From positions 310,001 to 374,000 of the forward strand of contig NZ_FOTR01000004.1 of assembly GCF_900114645.1 (NCBI RefSeq): a DNA stretch of 64,000 bases. Reading direction: 5' to 3'. The notes below the pieces were generated by a model. It saw nothing but the letters and a program-made list of their open reading frames with translations, was not told the DNA's origin and did not search any database. Origin of the DNA: Gracilibacillus orientalis (GTDB lineage Bacteria; Bacillota; Bacilli; Bacillales; Amphibacillaceae). The position numbers were made by a program, and so were the translations under genes. This document shows, piece by piece, positions 6,361 to 60,418 of the stretch (positions are counted from its first letter, which is position 1; the number at the start of each line of letters is the position of its first letter).

Positions 6361-6975
6361 ATGAAGAAAGGGATAATTATTGTCATTTTATATGGAATTA
6401 TTTTGTTCATAGCATACTTTTTCCATGAACCGTTAATAAATTGGTTAAATCGAAGTGAACCGTCACAGCTTCCCTTGATGTTTTTGCTTGCTGTTTTATT
6501 TGGAATTATTCCTGTTGTTCCATTTTCAGTCTTCGGCGCATTAATGGGTGCTAAATACGGGATTTTAATTGGTGCAGTAATTAATTGGACAGGATCAATA
6601 GGAGCATCTGCTATCTTATTTCTTTTTGCTCGTTTTGTTTTTGTGAAGGAATTCCAAAAGCTTATTACAAGATTTAAAAAGATTAAAAAGTTTGATGATC
6701 TTATTAATCATAATGCGTTTATCGCTGTGTTATTTAGTCGAATGATTCCGATTATCCCCCCACCTGTAATTAATATTTATTCTGGCCTAAGCTCTATACT
6801 ATTTAAAACCTATATTCTAGCAACCGCAATTGGCCAAATTCCCGGAATGATTGTTTATGCATTCATAGGTAATCAATTATTTGAATCTTTTTCTCATTTA
6901 TTAATGGGAATCTGTATCTATTTAGGTTTTCTAATTATCGTTATTCCCCTTTATCGCCGGTGGAGGACTTGTTAA
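6361..6975 (+). CDS. TVP38/TMEM64 (DedA-like) family membrane protein
   Basis: A 204-aa multi-spanning protein with the VTT-domain pattern: GxxxGAKYG..IG...NWTGSIGASAILFLFAR, then FSRMIPIIPPPVINIYSGLSS and GQIPGMIVYAFIGNQL. VTT/DedA proteins are linked to lipid flipping and membrane homeostasis. The stop lies 41 bases before the next gene's likely start, so the two are probably co-transcribed, linking it to an ectophosphatase. Confidence 0.85.
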   Translation: MKKGIIIVILYGIILFIAYFFHEPLINWLNRSEPSQLPLMFLLAVLFGIIPVVPFSVFGALMGAKYGILIGAVINWTGSIGASAILFLFARFVFVKEFQKLITRFKKIKKFDDLINHNAFIAVLFSRMIPIIPPPVINIYSGLSSILFKTYILATAIGQIPGMIVYAFIGNQLFESFSHLLMGICIYLGFLIIVIPLYRRWRTC

Positions 6976-7016
6976 ATTCGAATTTAAGAAGATTAAATGG
7001 AAGAGGGATTCATTCT

Positions 7017-8609
7017 ATGAAGAAAAGGAGATTGAATAAAGTGTTAAAACTAACTATTTCTATTCTCGTCATTTTATTAATACTTTCGCTTATTTATTTA
7101 TATTTAATTCAGCCAATCGTGAAAACAAATAAATTAACCCAGCCTTCAGATTATACATCTAAGCCTGTTGTTATGATTATTATTGATTCAATAATGGATG
7201 AACCATTACAAAATACAATAAAAGAAGGAAAAGCACCTGCATTAGAATTTTTAATGAATAATGGTAACTATTATCCAGATATGGTCAGTAGTTATCCTAC
7301 CATGTCGGTTACCATTGATAGTACATTGTTAACTGGAACATATCCAAATGAACATAAAATTCCTGGACTTGTTTGGTACGATGCACAAAATAAACAGTTT
7401 ATTAGTTATGGTAGTGCCAGACAGGAAATAATGAAAATAGGAATGAAACATGTTTTTCACAATAGCTTGTTTAGACTCAATCAGAATCACTTAAGTAAAG
7501 ATGTAACAACTATTCATGAAGAATTAGATGGACAGTCAGCTTCCATCAACACACTTGTATTCCGAGGAAACCATGAACAATTATTAAACGTACCTAGAAT
7601 TTTGAATATGAATGGCTTTTTAGAAAAGGGGGATTCGATAAATGGACCAAGATATTTTTCCTATGGACTATTATCAAGACTTAACCCAAATAATAACAAG
7701 ACTCATTTTTGGCAAGCCTTTGGTTTTAATAATGAGTTTTCAACAAAGGAACTTAAATTTTTAATAGAAGAAGATTATTTACCTTCTTTTTCACTCGTTT
7801 ATTTCTCTGATAATGATAAATTAGTACATAAAAACGGAGTGAAAGAAAGGAAGGGAATTGAAGAATCAGATAAACAATTGCAAGAAATACTTAATACTTA
7901 TCCGTCATGGGAAGAAGCGATACAGGATAATATATGGATCGTCATGGGGGATAGCGGACAAAGTGATATTGGGGAGGATAAGGAACAGGCACTGATTGAT
8001 TTAAGAAAATTGCTAAAAGAGTATAACGTACATCAAATTAGCGATCCTATTCAAGAACAAGATGAAATTGTTCTTGGATTAAATGAGCGAATGTCATTTA
8101 TTTACTTATTAGACAATAAGTTAGAGCAGAAGCATATTGCCAGACAATTAAAAAACGATGATCGCATTAATTTCATAGCTTGGAAACATGGTGATATGAT
8201 CCAAGTCATTTCAGGAGATGAGGAGGGTACGCTTTCGTTTAAACCTAACGGTACATACACTGATTCATATGGACAGAAATGGGAGTTGGAAGGAAACGAA
8301 AAAATATTAGATCTCTCGATAACTAAGGATAATAAGATATCTTATCGAGACTTTCCGGATGGACTTGCACGGTTGAATAGTTCTTTTTATTCGCAAACAG
8401 GAAGATATTTAATTGCAGACGCAAAACCTGGTTTTGAATTTGTTGGAGAAGGGTCACCGACTCATGTCAATGGCGCTAGCCACGGTTCGCTTTATAAGCA
8501 TGATTCCTATTTTCCCATGATTGTTACTGGAACTGAAATGGAACCAGAACATAAGCGAATGGTTGATTTAAAAGAATGGATTTTAAGAATATTAAACGAC
8601 GAAAACTAA
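7017..8609 (+). CDS. Membrane-anchored alkaline phosphatase superfamily (type I phosphodiesterase) protein
   Basis: A 530-aa protein with an N-terminal TM anchor (about residues 8-34), so the catalytic domain is probably extracellular. Superfamily motifs: MIIIDS (first metal Asp), SSYPTMSVTIDS with TGTYPNEH (Thr nucleophile region), SDNDKLVH (Asp/His metal pair) and NGASHGS (late metal His). The usual DHG motif reads GDSGQ, so one expected metal His is Ser. The start chosen is ATG 7017 (AAGAGGG upstream); an in-frame GTG at 6960 overlaps the previous gene. Substrate unknown; a phospholipid or teichoic-acid phosphoester is plausible from the neighbours. Confidence 0.83.
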   Translation: MKKRRLNKVLKLTISILVILLILSLIYLYLIQPIVKTNKLTQPSDYTSKPVVMIIIDSIMDEPLQNTIKEGKAPALEFLMNNGNYYPDMVSSYPTMSVTIDSTLLTGTYPNEHKIPGLVWYDAQNKQFISYGSARQEIMKIGMKHVFHNSLFRLNQNHLSKDVTTIHEELDGQSASINTLVFRGNHEQLLNVPRILNMNGFLEKGDSINGPRYFSYGLLSRLNPNNNKTHFWQAFGFNNEFSTKELKFLIEEDYLPSFSLVYFSDNDKLVHKNGVKERKGIEESDKQLQEILNTYPSWEEAIQDNIWIVMGDSGQSDIGEDKEQALIDLRKLLKEYNVHQISDPIQEQDEIVLGLNERMSFIYLLDNKLEQKHIARQLKNDDRINFIAWKHGDMIQVISGDEEGTLSFKPNGTYTDSYGQKWELEGNEKILDLSITKDNKISYRDFPDGLARLNSSFYSQTGRYLIADAKPGFEFVGEGSPTHVNGASHGSLYKHDSYFPMIVTGTEMEPEHKRMVDLKEWILRILNDEN

Positions 8610-8657
8610 AAGAACTTAGGCGTTATAAAATGAAAAAATATAACGGAGGACTACTTC

Positions 8658-9374
8658 ATGCATATCAAAGTGATGACTTATAATATTCATCATGGTAAAG
8701 GGTTAGATAAGAAAGTGAATCTTCACCGAATTTGTGATGTTATAGCTAACAGTAATGCAGATATTATCGGTCTAAATGAAGTAGATAGATATTTTTCAAA
8801 ACGAAGTCATTTTCTTGATCAAACAGAGTATCTAACAAATGAATTAAATTACTATGGTTTTTTCAGTCCTTCACTATCATTAAAACCAAGAAAGAATTGT
8901 GTAACTAGGCAATATGGGAATGCAATTCTATCTCGTTTTCCTATACATGCGTCAAATAGTTATGTCTTTAGCAATCGTCTTTGTTTTACTGAAGACAGAT
9001 CTATACTTGAGGCAATAATTCCATTAAATGATAAATTAGTGCATTTTTATGTTACACATTTAAGCTTAAACCCATGTATTCATAACAAACAAAGTGAGTT
9101 TATTATAAATAAAGCAAAGAGACCAGCAGTTATTATAGGTGATTGGAATATGAAAATGCAATCCAAGAGATGGAGAAGGGTTGTAGAAGTTTATAGAGAT
9201 GTATGGGACTCGGTTGAAAATCCAGCTGGGCTTACTTATCCATCCCAAAATCCTCGAAAAAGACTGGATTATATGTTTGTTAGTAACGATATTAAAATTC
9301 TGGATGTACAGGTTAATGATTTTATGCCAACAGCTTCAGATCATTTGCCTTTAGTATCTACTTTATCCATATAA
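8658..9374 (+). CDS. Endonuclease/exonuclease/phosphatase (EEP) family protein
   Basis: A 238-aa hydrolase of the DNase I/sphingomyelinase fold. Motifs: MTYNIHHGKG, ADIIGLNEVD (metal Glu), YVTHLSL, VIIGDWNM (Asp/Asn) and ASDHLPLVST (catalytic His). No signal peptide or TM is visible, so it is probably cytoplasmic. It follows the ectophosphatase by 48 bases, suggesting one operon. Such EEP proteins cleave phosphodiesters in lipids, nucleotides or nucleic acids; the substrate cannot be read from sequence. Confidence 0.85.
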   Translation: MHIKVMTYNIHHGKGLDKKVNLHRICDVIANSNADIIGLNEVDRYFSKRSHFLDQTEYLTNELNYYGFFSPSLSLKPRKNCVTRQYGNAILSRFPIHASNSYVFSNRLCFTEDRSILEAIIPLNDKLVHFYVTHLSLNPCIHNKQSEFIINKAKRPAVIIGDWNMKMQSKRWRRVVEVYRDVWDSVENPAGLTYPSQNPRKRLDYMFVSNDIKILDVQVNDFMPTASDHLPLVSTLSI

Positions 9375-9481
9375 CGGTCTCTTCCTCTCTGAATATCCTG
9401 AAAAGGTAACATCTTACAGAATAATCATTTGTACTCTTGACAAAATAATATTGGTATTACTTTATGAGAGGAAAAAAGCTA

Positions 9482-10054
9482 ATGAATATCAAATTATATG
9501 TCCTTACATTGTGGTTAGTCATTGATCCTATTTATTATATGTTTACTCGCCTTACCTACATTGATGATTCAAAGGGAAGTGATCAAAATGTTTTCAGGGT
9601 TCGTTTAACTCGCTATAAGGGGAGAGAATCGATACTAACTGATGGTACTGTTATCCAAAAAAATGATCTATTAATAAAAATTCATTTGCATAATGCACAG
9701 TTGATGAAAAGCATCAAAAATATCAAAGGCGATGTTAGAAAGGCTATGGTTATTCATCAAAATGTGGAAAGATCGTTACCTCAACTTGCTGAGTATGTGA
9801 ATAATCATTCCAACGCCACTGATATAAAAGGAATAATAGGTATAACCATGCTGAATCGAGGCAGTTCCAAATTAGGTTTTGACACTGTAGAGATTAGTAG
9901 CCCCTTTTATAAATACTTTAAATGTATGGCTTTACTTCCGATCTACTGGCTATCGGTTACTTCACTTTCCTCAAACAGTTTCAAAAAACATCATCCATGT
10001 TATTTATTCATGTCCAAAGGGAAGTTGTTACAAAAATATTTCCAGCAAATGTAG
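9482..10054 (+). CDS. YkoP-like protein
   Basis: About 190 aa from ATG 9482 (AGAGGAAA before it). It begins with a hydrophobic segment (LYVLTLWLVIDPIYYMFTRLTY), followed by a mixed alpha/beta domain and a C-terminal FMSKGKLLQKY segment. The pattern and its neighbours (a YkoQ-type phosphoesterase and a YkoN-type glycosyltransferase) match the B. subtilis ykoN-ykoP-ykoQ group. Biochemical function unknown. An earlier in-frame ATG at 9464 lacks a ribosome binding site. Confidence 0.68.
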   Translation: MNIKLYVLTLWLVIDPIYYMFTRLTYIDDSKGSDQNVFRVRLTRYKGRESILTDGTVIQKNDLLIKIHLHNAQLMKSIKNIKGDVRKAMVIHQNVERSLPQLAEYVNNHSNATDIKGIIGITMLNRGSSKLGFDTVEISSPFYKYFKCMALLPIYWLSVTSLSSNSFKKHHPCYLFMSKGKLLQKYFQQM

Positions 10055-10149
10055 GGTCACATAAGAAAAAAACAGACAAAACCCATCTAGGCCTGACCGT
10101 TTTATCTAATTCGAAATAGATACAAACTGCGCACTAATGGAAATTTTCT

Positions 10150-10262
10150 TTGGTAAGCTCCTTTCTTGAGTGAGGAGGCTCACCGGGTCACCCGCGGAAA
10201 GCGAAGTATGTTGCCGCAGCGTATCCCTAACACTCATTGCTAAGAAGAGGGAAGGAAGCAAA
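10150..10262. repeat. Probable Bacillaceae intergenic repeat remnant
   Basis: The stretch contains GCTCACCGGGTCACCCGCGG followed by AAAGCGAAGTATGTTGCCGC, more GC-rich than its surroundings. This wording resembles dispersed intergenic repeats I recall from Oceanobacillus/Virgibacillus-type genomes. No second copy was found in the window. The 10055-10439 gap holds this, a terminator and no credible gene; a 95-codon frame across it is hairpin and repeat read-through. Confidence 0.4.
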
Positions 10263-10329
10263 TCTAAGCGAAAGTTTTACTGCGTAGTTTATGTTTTATG
10301 TACAAAATTTCAACCATTCCTTACTTTAA

Positions 10330-10361
10330 AAAAGAACTCCTATCGCGATAGGAGTTCTTTT
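10330..10361. terminator. Bidirectional terminator between ykoP- and ykoQ-like genes
   Basis: A perfect 32-base palindrome, each arm AAAAGAACTCCTATCG or its complement, with T-runs both ways. It lies between two convergent genes. Confidence 0.85.
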
Positions 10362-10439
10362 GTTAGGTCAAAACCAAATATAGGAATGTATAGTCTATGT
10401 CATCCAATGAATAATAAACGTATGGAACCTAGAGCGAAA

Positions 10440-11297
10440 TTAAATAGCTGGATATAAATCGGAATTTTCCTTTGCCATAGGTAATTGATGAAGCGTTATT
10501 TCAGGTAGACTTCCAACCCTGATGTTTACACCAGTTTGACCCATTCCTTCACTGATATAGAAAGGTCGACCGTCTTGTGAATGAAGCCCTTTGATAATGT
10601 CCATTTTAGCAAGTTTGCCCATTTTGGCAAGATGATATGCTTTAGGATAACAAATTTGACCTCCATGAAAATGACCCGCTAACAAATAATCAAAATGGTA
10701 CCTTTTCATATCAAGTACAATATTAGGATCATGTGTCAATACTAGATTTGTCCCTTTTTTGATCGATTGATAAGAGCTGGCCAAGTCACTACGGTTCGTG
10801 CTGTAATCATCAACGCCAATAATGTTTAATGGCTGATTTTTAATATAAATGGTTTCACTGCTATTTTGCATTACATGACAATTATACTCATTAAGCGTGT
10901 CTATTAATGTTTGTAAATGAGCACCTTTTAACACATAATCATGATTACCTAAAACCGTGTATATGCCAAGCTTAGGCTGCAATTTATTAAAAACCTTTAA
11001 ATAAGGAATAAGCTTTGGAATCGTCTGCTTTCGATCAACAAAATCACCAGTTAAAGCAATTAAATCAATTGCTTCATCTTTTACCTTGTCATAAAGCATT
11101 TCAGGGGATATAGAGATATTTTCTAGATGTAAATCAGAAAGATGCAAAATATTTAAGGCTGAAACTGATTCTGTTTGGCTGTTATCTATCTTTATTTTTC
11201 TAACGACAATATTTTGTGTGTTTTTATACGCTTTGAAGATAACAATAGTCACTAGGATAATAAAACTAATTAATAATAACATGAACATATTCATCAC
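10440..11297 (-). CDS. ykoQ: YkoQ-like membrane metallophosphoesterase
   Basis: A 285-aa calcineurin-like phosphoesterase with an N-terminal TM segment (residues 3-22). Metal-binding motifs: LHLSDLHLE, LTGDFVDR, LGNHDYV, LTHDPN and GHFHGGQ. The family includes LpxH/YkuE-type enzymes acting on lipid phosphoesters. Start ATG with AGGAGTG upstream. It is divergent from the glycosyltransferase gene at 11403 and convergent to the YkoP-like gene, so the trio is conserved in content but rearranged in orientation. Confidence 0.85.
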   Translation of the reverse strand: MMNMFMLLLISFIILVTIVIFKAYKNTQNIVVRKIKIDNSQTESVSALNILHLSDLHLENISISPEMLYDKVKDEAIDLIALTGDFVDRKQTIPKLIPYLKVFNKLQPKLGIYTVLGNHDYVLKGAHLQTLIDTLNEYNCHVMQNSSETIYIKNQPLNIIGVDDYSTNRSDLASSYQSIKKGTNLVLTHDPNIVLDMKRYHFDYLLAGHFHGGQICYPKAYHLAKMGKLAKMDIIKGLHSQDGRPFYISEGMGQTGVNIRVGSLPEITLHQLPMAKENSDLYPAI

Positions 11298-11402
11298 TCC
11301 TCTGATCCTAATTATACAGGTTTTTATCCTTAATTGTTACGGCAATTCATGGATGTATTTCCAATATAATTTGTTTAAAATCTGACATTTATGAGGTGCA
11401 TC

Positions 11403-12515
11403 ATGACAATCAAATCAACCAAGATCTTATTTCTTCCATTTTTAAACATACCTTCTGGTCATCATCAAGTTGCAGATTCGCTTATGTATGAGATCGAATT
11501 AAATGAACCACGAATAAAATGTGAAAAAGCAGAAATACTTTCTTATAGCTATGGAAAATTAGAAGCTTTAGTATCAGGAATTTATCTTAAATGGATTCAT
11601 TTATTTCCTCATTTATATAATTGGATTTATCAACAAAGTGTATATAAAAACATAGAACAACATAAAAAATTCAGATTGTACGAATTACTTTTTTTAGCTC
11701 AAATGAAACAACTAATAAATGAGAAACAACCAGATTGTGTGATCTGTACGCATGCGTTACCTTCCTATATGTTAAATGTGATGAAAGAAAAAGGTATCAT
11801 CAATATTCCGGTGATTAATGTTTACACTGACTTTTTCATACATCGCTTTTGGGGCACTAATCATATCGACTTTCATTTTGTTTCATCTCCTAATATGAAA
11901 GAACTCTTAGAGAAAAAAGGAATACCAGAGGAGCGAATATGGTTTACGGGCATTCCCGTTCATCATGAGATTAAGCCAGACAGGAAGCCAGTTATGAAAC
12001 ATCATTCCTCATGTTTATCCATTATGGTGACAGGTGGAAATTTAGGGGTTGGTGCGATGGAAGATTTATTAAACAATATAAAAACAAGTGGTAAAATAAA
12101 ATTTTATGTGTTATGTGGAAAAAACAACCTGCTATATCGAAAATTGCAGAGATTAAATAACACTAACATTATCCCTTTAAAATATATTACATGTAGGAAG
12201 GAAATGAATGAACTATATGATTCGATAGACGGTATTCTAACCAAACCAGGTGGAGTAACGATAAGTGAATGTTTAAGAAAAAGAAAACCAACTTTTATAT
12301 ATCATGCACTGCCAGGACAAGAGGTTATAAACCTTGATCAATTACAACAATTGGGAGTGGTTTTTTACCTAAGCGATTGGAGGGATATCGAGAGTCAACT
12401 ATTCACCTTTTTTGACAATAATGAACACCTTGTAGAAATGAATTCAAGTCTAGAGAGTTACCACCGTCAACTAGTGGATAAAAGAATATCTGAACTGATC
12501 CAGCAAATATTGTGA
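11403..12515 (+). CDS. ykoN: YkoN-like processive diacylglycerol glucosyltransferase / MGDG synthase family protein
   Basis: A GT28-type glycosyltransferase of 370 aa. The N-terminal acceptor domain starts with LFLPFLNIPSGHHQVADSL (MGDG-synthase motif, glycine loop and GHHQ). The C-terminal UDP-sugar domain has MVTGGNLGVGAM, and TKPGGVTISECL precedes the donor-site PGQEVINLDQL. Members transfer glucose or galactose to diacylglycerol at the inner membrane face; the exact sugar is not readable. The start is ATG 11403, with GAGGTG immediately upstream, rather than the ATG at 11391 that would contain that site. Confidence 0.85.
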   Translation: MTIKSTKILFLPFLNIPSGHHQVADSLMYEIELNEPRIKCEKAEILSYSYGKLEALVSGIYLKWIHLFPHLYNWIYQQSVYKNIEQHKKFRLYELLFLAQMKQLINEKQPDCVICTHALPSYMLNVMKEKGIINIPVINVYTDFFIHRFWGTNHIDFHFVSSPNMKELLEKKGIPEERIWFTGIPVHHEIKPDRKPVMKHHSSCLSIMVTGGNLGVGAMEDLLNNIKTSGKIKFYVLCGKNNLLYRKLQRLNNTNIIPLKYITCRKEMNELYDSIDGILTKPGGVTISECLRKRKPTFIYHALPGQEVINLDQLQQLGVVFYLSDWRDIESQLFTFFDNNEHLVEMNSSLESYHRQLVDKRISELIQQIL

Positions 12516-12635
12516 GATAGTTTTATTAATCCATGCTTACCTTATGGTCGATTTCATCATCGTTTTATTATAGTATAAGTATACAATGGTGATCGCCATA
12601 TTTTTTGAATATAACAAAGGAAGCTGGTAATAAAA

Positions 12636-13511
12636 ATGGATTACAGTCATTTATATGCTATGTATAAACCGCTGCTTTTCACGGTTGCTTATCGAATGTT
12701 AGGTTCTATCAAGGATGCAGAGGATATTGTCCATGATGTTTTCATGCATTTAGAAAAGCTAGATCTATCTACTATTGATGATCCAAAGGCATATTTGGCA
12801 AAAATGACGACAAATAAAAGCTTGAATTATCTTCAATCTTCTACAAAAAAACGCGAAGTTTACCCAGGTCCATGGCTGCCAGAGCCTATTGTTAATCCTG
12901 ATGCAAATGCTCCTCTAGAAAATCTTTTAAAAGAAGAATCTATTTCTTATGCTTTTGTTGTTCTCTTACATCAACTTACAGAACTTGAACGGTGTATTTA
13001 TATATTGAGGGTAGTGCTCACATTTGACTATGCCTTCATTTCATCGATTTTAAATCGATCAGAGCAAAGTTGTAGAAAAGTATATAGTAGAGCAAAGCAA
13101 AAATTACAGCAAAATAAATCATTCAATAAAGCAACTAAAGAGGAAGCAAACGAACTGGCCAAGATATTCCTACGCGCGGTGGAAAGTGGTCAGTTTGATC
13201 CTTTCATTGATTACTTATCAAAAGATGTGGTGCTTGTATCCGATGGTGGCGGAAAAGTATTGTCTGCTATGTATCCGATTATTAGCAAAAAGCGGGTTGT
13301 TGCATTTCTACAGGGAATTCATAAGAGAGGGACTTTTCAAGGGCAGCTTAGTATAGTAAAAGTCAATGAAGAGATCGGAATTCTCCAGCAACAACATGAC
13401 AAGCCTGCAAAGTTGCTAACGTTTGATTACACGGAGGCTGGTGTTCAAAATATTTATATTGTGATGAACCCAAATAAATTAAAAGAAATAGGTCACAATT
13501 TCTCCTTTTAA
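12636..13511 (+). CDS. ECF41-type sigma factor with SnoaL-like C-terminal domain
   Basis: A 291-aa RNA polymerase sigma factor. Region 2 (residues 5-70, DAEDIVHDVFMHLEKL) and region 4 (residues 105-160) are followed by a NTF2/SnoaL-like domain of about 120 aa that acts in cis as anti-sigma/activator. The ECF41 signatures are all present: WLPEP at 80-84, DGGGK at 203-207 (usually DGGGR) and NPNKL at 278-282 (usually NPDKL). No separate anti-sigma gene is expected. The gene precedes an AhpD-like gene by 41 bases, the typical ECF41 target pairing. Confidence 0.92.
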   Translation: MDYSHLYAMYKPLLFTVAYRMLGSIKDAEDIVHDVFMHLEKLDLSTIDDPKAYLAKMTTNKSLNYLQSSTKKREVYPGPWLPEPIVNPDANAPLENLLKEESISYAFVVLLHQLTELERCIYILRVVLTFDYAFISSILNRSEQSCRKVYSRAKQKLQQNKSFNKATKEEANELAKIFLRAVESGQFDPFIDYLSKDVVLVSDGGGKVLSAMYPIISKKRVVAFLQGIHKRGTFQGQLSIVKVNEEIGILQQQHDKPAKLLTFDYTEAGVQNIYIVMNPNKLKEIGHNFSF

Positions 13512-13552
13512 TTTGTCTTATATGTGAAAGCCAAAAAAAGGAGGAATAAAAT

Positions 13553-13990
13553 ATGGAACAAAGAATCAATTATATGGAGGTAGCACCTGATTTAGTTAAA
13601 CTCATTGGACAATTGGAAATGTACAAAAAGCAGACGGAATTTGATGAGAAACTGATTGAATTGGTAAAGATTCGTGCATCCCAGCTCAATAATTGTGCGT
13701 ATTGTATTAATATGCACACGAAGGATGCCAGAGCATTAGGAGAAACAGAACAAAGAATTTATTGCCTGAGTGCTTGGAGAGAAACAGACTTCTATACAGA
13801 AAGTGAAAAAGCTGCACTTGAATTGACGGAAGCAATAACTAAAATTTCTGAGCAAGGTGTGCCTGATAAAGTGTATCAAAAAGCTTGCAAGCAATTTGAT
13901 GAAAAGCAATATATCGATTTAGTGGGGCTTATTATTACAATCAACTGCTGGAACCGATTATCAATCGCCAATCATAATGTTCCAGAATAA
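13553..13990 (+). CDS. AhpD-like carboxymuconolactone decarboxylase family protein
   Basis: A 145-aa protein with the AhpD-core motif CAYCINMHTKDAR (CxxCxxxHxxxxR) around residues 47-60, the pattern of alkylhydroperoxidase-type thiol enzymes. AGGAGG lies 8 bases upstream of the ATG. Genes of this COE class are the usual partners of ECF41 sigma factors, which suggests control by the upstream gene product. The physiological substrate is unknown. Confidence 0.9.
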   Translation: MEQRINYMEVAPDLVKLIGQLEMYKKQTEFDEKLIELVKIRASQLNNCAYCINMHTKDARALGETEQRIYCLSAWRETDFYTESEKAALELTEAITKISEQGVPDKVYQKACKQFDEKQYIDLVGLIITINCWNRLSIANHNVPE

Positions 13991-16926: not shown

Positions 16927-17323
16927 GAATGAATGTTGAAGTAATCGCTGCACATACTATATGTGTAGAGGAAAGTCCATGCTCACACAGGCTGTGATGC
17001 CTGTAGTGTTCGTGCTTGACGAAATCATAAGTCAGGGTAACCTTTTTAGGTTAACGGCAGGGAAAACACCTACGTCTTTGGATATGGTGTGAATACCTTG
17101 AAAGTGCCACAGTGACGTAGCTAAATAGGAAACTATTTAGGTGGAACGCGGTAAACCCCTCGAGTGAGCAACCCAAATATTGGTAGGGGCATCTTCCATT
17201 AGGGAATTCAACCGAACGAAGGACAAGCTTTTGGCTTGTAGACAGATGATTACTCCTTTGGTACGAGGCTGACCACCGCTGGCAGTACGAAAAGGACAGA
17301 ACATGGCTTACTGACATTCATTC
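16927..17323 (+). ncRNA. rnpB: RNase P RNA, type B
   Basis: Catalytic RNA that matures tRNA 5' ends. Conserved blocks are visible: GTAATCGCTGC and AGAGGAAAGTCCATGCTC near the 5' end, GAAAGTGCCACAGTGACG, GGAACGCGGTAAACCCCTCG and ACAGAACATGGCTTA near the 3' end. The ends pair with each other (GAATGAATGTT with GACATTCATTC). The layout is the Bacillus type B form, and the gene lies between gpsB and ypsC as in B. subtilis. Confidence 0.97.
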
Positions 17324-59928: not shown

Positions 59929-59967
59929 ATACTTATCCATATAAAAGTATTGCTATATTAGATACTA

Positions 59968-60058
59968 GCCACTTCCCTACGCTGGTATTATCCAGATCAG
60001 GTTCTAAGGGTCTTAAAGTCTTACTTTAATCTCAGTCTTTAAAAGACACCCCTAGTGG
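59968..60058 (-). promoter_or_regulatory. TPP riboswitch (THI element)
   Basis: Minus strand: ACTAGGGGTGTC, an arm with CTGAGATT, then CCTTAGAACCTGATCTGGAT and AATACCAGCGTAGGGAAGT. These are the conserved blocks of the thiamine pyrophosphate aptamer. With the terminator at 59891-59928 it switches off ykoEDC when TPP is plentiful. Confidence 0.95.
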
Positions 60059-60221
60059 AATGTGTTTATAATATTTAATTTGACTTCATCATATCAAAGT
60101 TATCGATATTGTCAAGAAATTATTTTAACAAATCTGATTGCGCTAATTGATATTTTTTGTTATAGTTAATTACAATGAAAAACAATTAAATATTTTACTT
60201 CAATTTTTATTGAAGTGAGAA

Positions 60222-60395
60222 TAGAGGTGCAAAGACCATTAGTACATAGTCGAAGGCTGATGTAGCCAGTGAAGACAATGGAAAGGGGAATTTGCCGAAG
60301 TAATCTAAGGATAACATCAACTTATATTACTGGTCCTTCATTGAATAAATGCAGGGCTGTCATATAGTGACGAACTATATGGAGGGCTATCTCAC
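60222..60395 (+). promoter_or_regulatory. Lysine riboswitch (L-box)
   Basis: GAGGTGC at 60224, AGTACATAGTCGAAGG, AAAGGGGAATTTGCCGAAG, GCAGGGCTGTC and GGAGGGCTATCTC at about 60381. These are the five-way junction motifs of the lysine aptamer. The terminator at 60419-60457 completes the switch upstream of dapA. Confidence 0.95.
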
Positions 60396-60418
60396 GCATC
60401 GAATCCAATGTAAATCCA

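Follow-up and report, generated by a model that had tools for sequence, protein, structure and literature searches.

Six genes that encode envelope and lipid enzymes lie side by side on a 64,000-nucleotide (nt) stretch of the Gracilibacillus orientalis genome (contig NZ_FOTR01000004.1, positions 310,001 to 374,000; hereafter, the window), and they raise the question of whether the locus at 6361–12515 is a functional unit and, if so, what it would do to the membrane. Genome comparisons revealed a widely recurrent core of YkoP, YkoQ, and a GT28 glycosyltransferase, which an alkaline-phosphatase-superfamily enzyme (hereafter, AP) and an EEP-fold enzyme join repeatedly in scrambled orders. Because parts of this set recur jointly in many bacilli, with their order shuffled, the genes probably work together. 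We tentatively read the locus, at somewhat below an even chance, as a modular locus for membrane-lipid tailoring in bacilli that is built on ykoN-ykoP-ykoQ and that makes, acylates, and turns over glyco(phospho)lipids. Support for the module itself is good, and its chemistry is what we infer.

All six open reading frames (ORFs) are present, and each scores over the Pfam cut-off for its family, as the first-pass annotation of the window had indicated. The gene order is VTT> AP> EEP> YkoP> <YkoQ GT28>. That annotation was right in placing the genes together and in the start of GT28 that it implied (11403); YkoQ lies on the minus strand (10440–11297). The first four genes, all on the plus strand, encode a VTT/DedA-type membrane protein of 204 amino acids (aa) with six hydrophobic segments in its hydrophobicity profile (6361–6975; Pfam VTT_dom, 79.6 bits), the NPP-type phosphodiesterase AP with one N-terminal anchor (7017–8609; Phosphodiest, 66.7 bits with a cut-off of 23), an EEP-fold phosphatase/phosphodiesterase (8658–9374; Exo_endo_phos, 76.8 bits), and the YkoP domain protein (9482–10054; PF22790, 211.5 bits with a gathering score of 27). 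YkoQ is a membrane-anchored calcineurin-like metallophosphoesterase (Metallophos, 53.2 bits), and the MGDG-synthase-type GT28, P0006 (11403–12515, plus strand), matches MGDG_synth (109.6 bits) and Glyco_tran_28_C. Likely starts were chosen from ribosome-binding sites (AP 7017, YkoP 9482, GT28 11403, YkoQ 11288 or 11294), even though the longest ORFs of AP and YkoP begin at 6960 and 9464. With these starts, the spacers among VTT, AP, EEP, and YkoP are 41, 48, and 107 nt, and YkoQ and GT28 diverge out of a 114-nt region. The short gaps of the first four genes, together with the joint recurrence of the families in other genera, show that the six genes are more than a chance neighbourhood.

Recurrence of the six families in bacilli

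Three sets of genomes and loci were compared: 120 genomes of the window's family, 250 genomes sampled across the class, and the loci of the best 80 of 249 YkoP matches (hereafter, named loci), from which one (L254) was dropped for want of a YkoP ORF, leaving 79. ORFs came from simple longest-ORF calling and some loci stop at contig ends, therefore neighbours can be missed, and the YkoP loci of the window's family were mostly picked via GT28, which biases GT28 adjacency in that set. YkoP was found in 56 of the 120 family genomes, a GT28 match in 58, and both in 52. The common family layout is YkoP> <YkoQ GT28>, which in many genera lies, by our own reading, between ctpB/minJ-like and uvrB-uvrA genes. 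AP is present in 33 family genomes, 12 of which carry it no more than 3.1 kb from YkoP or GT28, in arrangements that include VTT-AP-EEP-YkoP, AP-YkoP-GT28, GT28-AP, AP-YkoQ-YkoP/GT28, and AP-EEP-YkoP/GT28.

Among the 79 named loci, AP occurs less than 6 kb from YkoP in 22, EEP in 15, and VTT (over 100 bits) in 5; random placement would give about 0.09 AP neighbours (a Poisson estimate with assumed prevalence and genome size that ignores relatedness). The 23 named loci with AP anywhere in the stretch yield 15 gene-order strings, some of which are distinguished by nothing but a gene that is missing or split. One string is common to Bacillus haynesii, B. sonorensis, B. paralicheniformis, and B. 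changyiensis, and presumably represents one event. In the class sample, AP was found in 73 of 250 genomes and, counted by eye among the matches listed, stands near the core at at least eight places in at least six genomes. Outside the window's family, the arrangements include EEP-AP-YkoP-GT28 (G534) and AP-YkoP-GT28 (G566), with further cases in G490, G488, and G418. A genome of another family (G586, locus L175) carries all six families on one contig in the order <YkoP GT28> <YkoQ AP> EEP> <VTT, with AP split. Lipid-kinase genes adjoin AP or lie one gene off in four family genomes (G119, G080, G093, and G066), and the one representative that was checked is a YegS/DAGK protein. In loci L016, L067, L070, and L091, the lipid-kinase genes adjoining AP or one gene off are paired in three.

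AP and EEP thus recur beside the core, which bears out the earlier view of a set that extends past ykoN/P/Q and has an envelope-lipid context. A lack of conservation beyond those three genes, which had been named as a refutation, is contradicted both by the many AP/EEP arrangements and by the presence of all six families in L175. A single conserved six-gene operon was rejected, given that order and strand vary and that VTT is rarely linked. We found no published description of the six-gene set in a literature search, in agreement with the first-pass annotation.

VTT is the weakest and most loosely attached member of the set. It is 52% identical to the VTT of L175 and stands beside YkoQ in three named Bacillus/Cytobacillus loci, and it scores 25.8 bits against the NCBIfam model of the undecaprenyl-phosphate transporter UptA, below the cut-off of 250. 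A DedA gene near YkoP in B. velezensis was considered as a counterpart of VTT and rejected (20% identity over 125 aa). That locus, on plasmid pDMB05-1 of strain DMB05 (L271), has YkoP without GT28 or YkoQ nearby; its YkoP adjoins DNA ligase D and Ku genes downstream of fbpA and a MarR gene, and the DedA gene, about 3 kb away, is of another subfamily.

If the neighbourhood were a loose one, only ykoP-ykoQ-ykoN would be a real unit, with AP, EEP, and VTT as independent hitch-hikers in a variable region. AP and VTT are indeed distant from the core in the majority of sampled genomes in which they occur, and VTT has joined mainly in one genus. However, proximity is kept despite scrambled orders in many genera and in another family, which is hard to obtain by hitch-hiking, and AP-EEP pairs travel jointly without YkoP or GT28 in two genomes (G034 and G093). 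We regard this explanation as improbable.

The glycosyltransferase and phosphate starvation

P0006 is the sole MGDG_synth-family match of the genome. In a tree of 69 sequences (midpoint-rooted for drawing), it falls in a 45-member clade with support of 100/100, which also holds the GT28 of B. mojavensis (L264). The latter adjoins YkoP and YkoQ, and a GT28 of this type in the B. subtilis group is called YkoN. UgtP-like proteins lie across a 100/100 split from P0006, even though the diglucosyldiacylglycerol synthase UgtP/YpfP has the GT28/MGDG_synth family in common with it. Against the NCBIfam model of UgtP (PRK13609, cut-off 500 bits), P0006 scores 172.5, compared to 448.7 for a protein beyond the split (L043). 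By sequence, the window GT28 belongs to the YkoN clade and not to the UgtP side. Directly 3' of it (12636–13990) are a gene for a sigma-70-family (ECF-like) factor and then, by eye, an AhpD-like gene, a pair that is kept in three near genomes (G116, G073, and G109).

These results bear on the function that had been proposed from the window alone, in which the three phosphoesterases free diacylglycerol from phospholipid and GT28 uses it to make a phosphate-free glycolipid in phosphate starvation. The AP and EEP folds do include phospholipid-head hydrolases, and GT28, as the only MGDG_synth match, may be the only synthase of that type in the genome. However, a scan with the PhoP-box consensus found no repeats in the gaps 5' of 6361 or 9482, or on the minus strand before YkoQ. 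Near GT28, the other gene for which such a search had been proposed, one match (11270, 11/12) is among 63 such plus-strand matches in 64 kb and corresponds to background. The literature points elsewhere as well: the title of a 2007 paper by Matsuura, as given in a reference list (PMC11500525), links B. subtilis YkoN to 'production of a new phospholipid', and PMC4703394 names ykoN among the sigma-G genes and includes it in a set of eight mutants, of which seven showed a reduction in early spores. Because a PhoP-box signal is lacking, GT28 lies off the UgtP side, and the literature concerns phospholipid and sporulation, the phosphate-starvation proposal is unsupported, and we consider it very improbable.

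Other elements of the intergenic regions were also compared. A 14-bp hairpin separates YkoP from YkoQ (perfect palindrome at 10330–10361, −17.8 kcal/mol, z −5.62) and is a probable bidirectional terminator. In the divergent promoter region of YkoQ and GT28, the inverted repeat AATTGTTACGGCAATT (11332–11347) aligned in the window and three same-genus genomes, with one C/T change in two of them. The window holds no second copy when up to two mismatches are allowed, and 26 of 100 shuffled sequences reach that number too; the repeat is a possible operator. A scan of the cluster range with a sigma-G consensus gave no convincing site; sigma-G-like strings start at 9419 on the plus strand (ending about 16 nt before 9464) and at 12536 on the minus strand. 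The intergenic region at 10150–10240 is G+C-rich and carries CACCCGCGGAAAGCGAAG (10189–10206), which has a single window copy at up to three mismatches and resembles a dispersed repeat. No Rfam match at gathering scores was found within the cluster, and elsewhere the window contains RNase P RNA class B (16932–17315), a TPP riboswitch (59957–60063), and a lysine riboswitch (60214–60397). An S477-ykoP operon is described in PMC6212828 as being under the negative control of several factors, Fur, ResD, NsrR, and Kre among them.

Phosphoesterases, YkoP, and the proposed lipid chemistry

The predicted model of AP (pLDDT 88.0) has an ENPP fold (Foldseek best E 1.3e-16), and its Phosphodiest domain and NPP fold make it a member of the NPP phosphodiesterases. 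Its residue S116 aligned, by our own reading of the profile alignment, to the nucleophile position of ENPP4, and a PTMS motif at this nucleophile is conserved in AP and 33 homologues. An Asp-His pair is canonical at the second metal site of NPP enzymes and appears as DHG in ENPP4 in the profile alignment; AP lacks the pair, and D331 is followed by S or N in 34 of 34 aligned sequences. The single N-terminal anchor is preceded by a strongly positive flank (+6), thus the catalytic domain would probably be external. EEP keeps its catalytic-motif residues across 15 sequences, and its profile best matches uncharacterised EEP proteins, then sphingomyelinase C and nocturnin. Having no hydrophobic segment, it is probably cytosolic. 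YkoQ keeps the D-x-H, GD-x-x-D, GNHD, and GHxH motifs, and its N-terminal hydrophobic segment with a positive flank behind it suggests a cytosolic catalytic domain. Its nearest NCBIfam models are LpxG (106.3 bits, cut-off 350) and YaeI (101.5 bits, cut-off 188), both below their cut-offs; a mode of action resembling that of LpxG, which hydrolyses UDP-acylsugars, is conceivable for YkoQ.

YkoP was modelled by AF2 from an alignment (pLDDT 90.8), and the Foldseek and VIA-align lists, 50 rows each, consist, by title or by our own reading, of GNAT-type acyltransferases or their relatives (LasI, FeeM); one of the acyltransferase structures was determined with teicoplanin. A few titles are not explicit, and the highest-ranked VIA-align chain, 7byy, is one of these ('bacterial toxin'). 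Across 164 YkoP sequences, H74 and F139 never vary and G138 is kept in 162; the Gly-Phe pair of G138 and F139 recalls the 'GF' motif of GNAT proteins. Searching the YkoP profile against PDB sequences returned noise only, and we found no described function for YkoP in the literature.

Even though the substrates, the direction of each step, and the membrane topologies are matters of prediction, these parts suggest a chemistry for the lipid-tailoring locus. On the cytosolic face, the YkoN-type GT28 would place a sugar on a membrane lipid, most likely on a phospholipid head such as that of phosphatidylglycerol, and YkoP, if its predicted GNAT-like fold has acyltransferase activity, would acylate the glycosylated product or a precursor. 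VTT may aid lipid movement between the leaflets, and the phosphoesterases would trim or recycle phosphodiester-linked heads, with AP outside, EEP in the cytosol, and YkoQ at the membrane. Besides the recurrent co-location and the place of GT28 in the YkoN clade, we favour this reading because the ENPP fold group includes the glycerophosphodiesterase ENPP6, because the EEP profile reaches sphingomyelinases, and because of the phospholipid title for YkoN, the lipid-kinase genes near AP, and the GNAT-type proteins in the YkoP lists.

Several observations weigh against it. YkoQ and GT28 are not co-directional with VTT-AP-EEP-YkoP as one operon would require, and linkage is incomplete. Of the 33 family genomes that have AP, 21 place it farther than 3.1 kb from YkoP and GT28; of the 72 class-sample AP genomes outside the family, at least 6, counted by eye, have it within 5 kb of either gene; and of the 49 genomes of that sample with VTT, only 2 carry it close to the core. 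AP is also split in three loci (L020, L257, and L175, where two ORFs occupy 9032–10468), which may reflect ongoing gene loss in part of the lineages or an error of sequencing. The top fold matches of AP are nucleotide phosphodiesterases (venom phosphodiesterase, ENPP1, and ENPP3), with ENPP6 appearing lower in the Foldseek list, and its best PDB sequence match is ENPP4, therefore its substrate could equally be a nucleotide or a lipid. Pfam gave no GNAT family match for YkoP, and its fold scores (Foldseek best E 0.07 and TM about 0.3; VIA-align Z 8.4, just over the usual noise level) make its GNAT-like nature borderline.

Deacetylase-linked YkoP and known systems

Across the phylum, YkoP has another recurrent partner. 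In a phylum-wide sample of 299 genomes, YkoP was found in 44, and 40 loci were taken from most of its 47 matches; one (L166) without a YkoP call was dropped, leaving 39. In 23 of the 39 (L101, L105, L109, L113, L120, L128, and 17 more of L130–L157), YkoP forms the C-terminal part of a polysaccharide deacetylase (CE4) protein; in eight others a separate deacetylase lies within three genes, and in the remaining eight none is near. The CE4 model was built from the same fused ORFs and is in that sense circular. A later comparison with Pfam confirmed the deacetylase in each of the 23 fused and eight separate cases, and an ORF of L118 that turned out to be a peptidase was set aside. GT28 is within three genes in 12 of the 31 YkoP loci with a deacetylase (10 of the 23 fused cases), and an MFS-type cluster, six members of which were checked with Pfam, is near YkoP in 14 of 39 loci. 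We read deacetylase-YkoP/GT28 as a widespread glycolipid-modification locus, for which we found no description; no two of YkoP, YkoQ, deacetylase, and PF22790 occurred in the same paper in our literature search.

These loci suggest an acyl-aminosugar lipid, in which GT28 would add an N-acetylhexosamine to a lipid, CE4 would free the amine, and YkoP would N-acylate it with a fatty acid, in the manner of NodC, NodB, and NodA; in bacilli, the deacetylase would be unlinked or lost and the phosphoesterases would handle phospho-intermediates. The fusions, the nearby deacetylases, and the MFS-type clusters are consistent with this, and YkoN-clade GT28 adjoins deacetylase-YkoP in three loci (L148, L150, and L152). 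By annotation, Thermomicrobium roseum has a deacetylase-glycosyltransferase-glycosyltransferase-YkoP row (YkoP match 25–32% identical), and YkoP matches were also found in the control genomes of Thermus composti and Deinobacterium chartae. T. thermophilus has glycolipids in which glucosamine bears a fatty acid in amide linkage (PMC3398001), and an amino phosphoglycolipid with a free amine (PMC9636437). On the other side, 13 of the 23 fused cases have no GT28 within three genes, the GNAT fold is borderline, and kinship of YkoP with NodA was rejected at the sequence level (hhalign probability 0.2%, both for a single NodA and for six). CE4 is near YkoP in 0 of the 79 named bacillar loci and in 1 of the 58 YkoP loci of the window's family, thus the amino-sugar reading suits the wider family better than the window, for which we consider it unlikely. 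A broader claim joins both lines: YkoP would found an unrecognised GNAT-like acyltransferase family, GT28-MFS-[CE4+YkoP] loci of Gram-positives would make fatty-N-acyl-aminosugar lipids by a logic like that of Nod factors and lipid A, and the YkoN-YkoP-YkoQ-AP-EEP locus of Bacillaceae would be a phospholipid-based branch in which three phosphoesterase folds replace the deacetylase. We hold this claim to be rather doubtful.

With these results, YkoP gains a candidate fold and recurrent partners (GT28, deacetylase, MFS transporter, and two phosphodiesterases), and is thus directly testable, and the 'new phospholipid' of B. subtilis YkoN and the timing of sporulation, in the study of which ykoN was among the eight mutants, become approachable by one common experiment. 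If the reading that we favour is true, acylated glyco(phospho)lipids of Gram-positive bacteria form a class that has escaped notice.

Among known gene sets, B. subtilis ykoN-ykoP-ykoQ comprises the same three families as the core. In B. mojavensis (L264), GT28, YkoP, and YkoQ stand side by side in the order <GT28 YkoP> <YkoQ, compared to YkoP> <YkoQ GT28 in the window, and, unlike in the window, no AP or EEP lies within 6 kb of YkoP. The rhizobial NodABC logic of glycosyltransferase, CE4 deacetylase, and acyltransferase is matched in the YkoP loci of other groups, whereas the window cluster has no CE4 and its YkoP shows no NodA kinship in sequence. HexSDF of Clostridioides difficile, as described in PMC10128005, resembles the window in combining an MGDG-synthase-type glycosyltransferase, lipid tailoring, and a transporter slot; however, nothing in the window cluster corresponds to the HexD deacetylase, since no CE4 lies within three genes of YkoP and GT28 is thus not paired with a linked deacetylase, and HexF is MprF-like and not a VTT protein. 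GpgSDF of Pseudomonas aeruginosa follows a similar plan, according to PMC12713373, with a glycosyltransferase acting on phosphatidylglycerol (GlcNAc-PG synthase), a modifier, and a predicted flippase, but its synthase is a GT4 enzyme, its deacetylase belongs to COG3233 and its flippase to UPF0104, and its operon is described there without phosphoesterases. HexSDF and GpgSDF are the nearest characterised systems, and the window has their synthase-modifier-transporter plan, with no deacetylase and with three phosphoesterase folds added.

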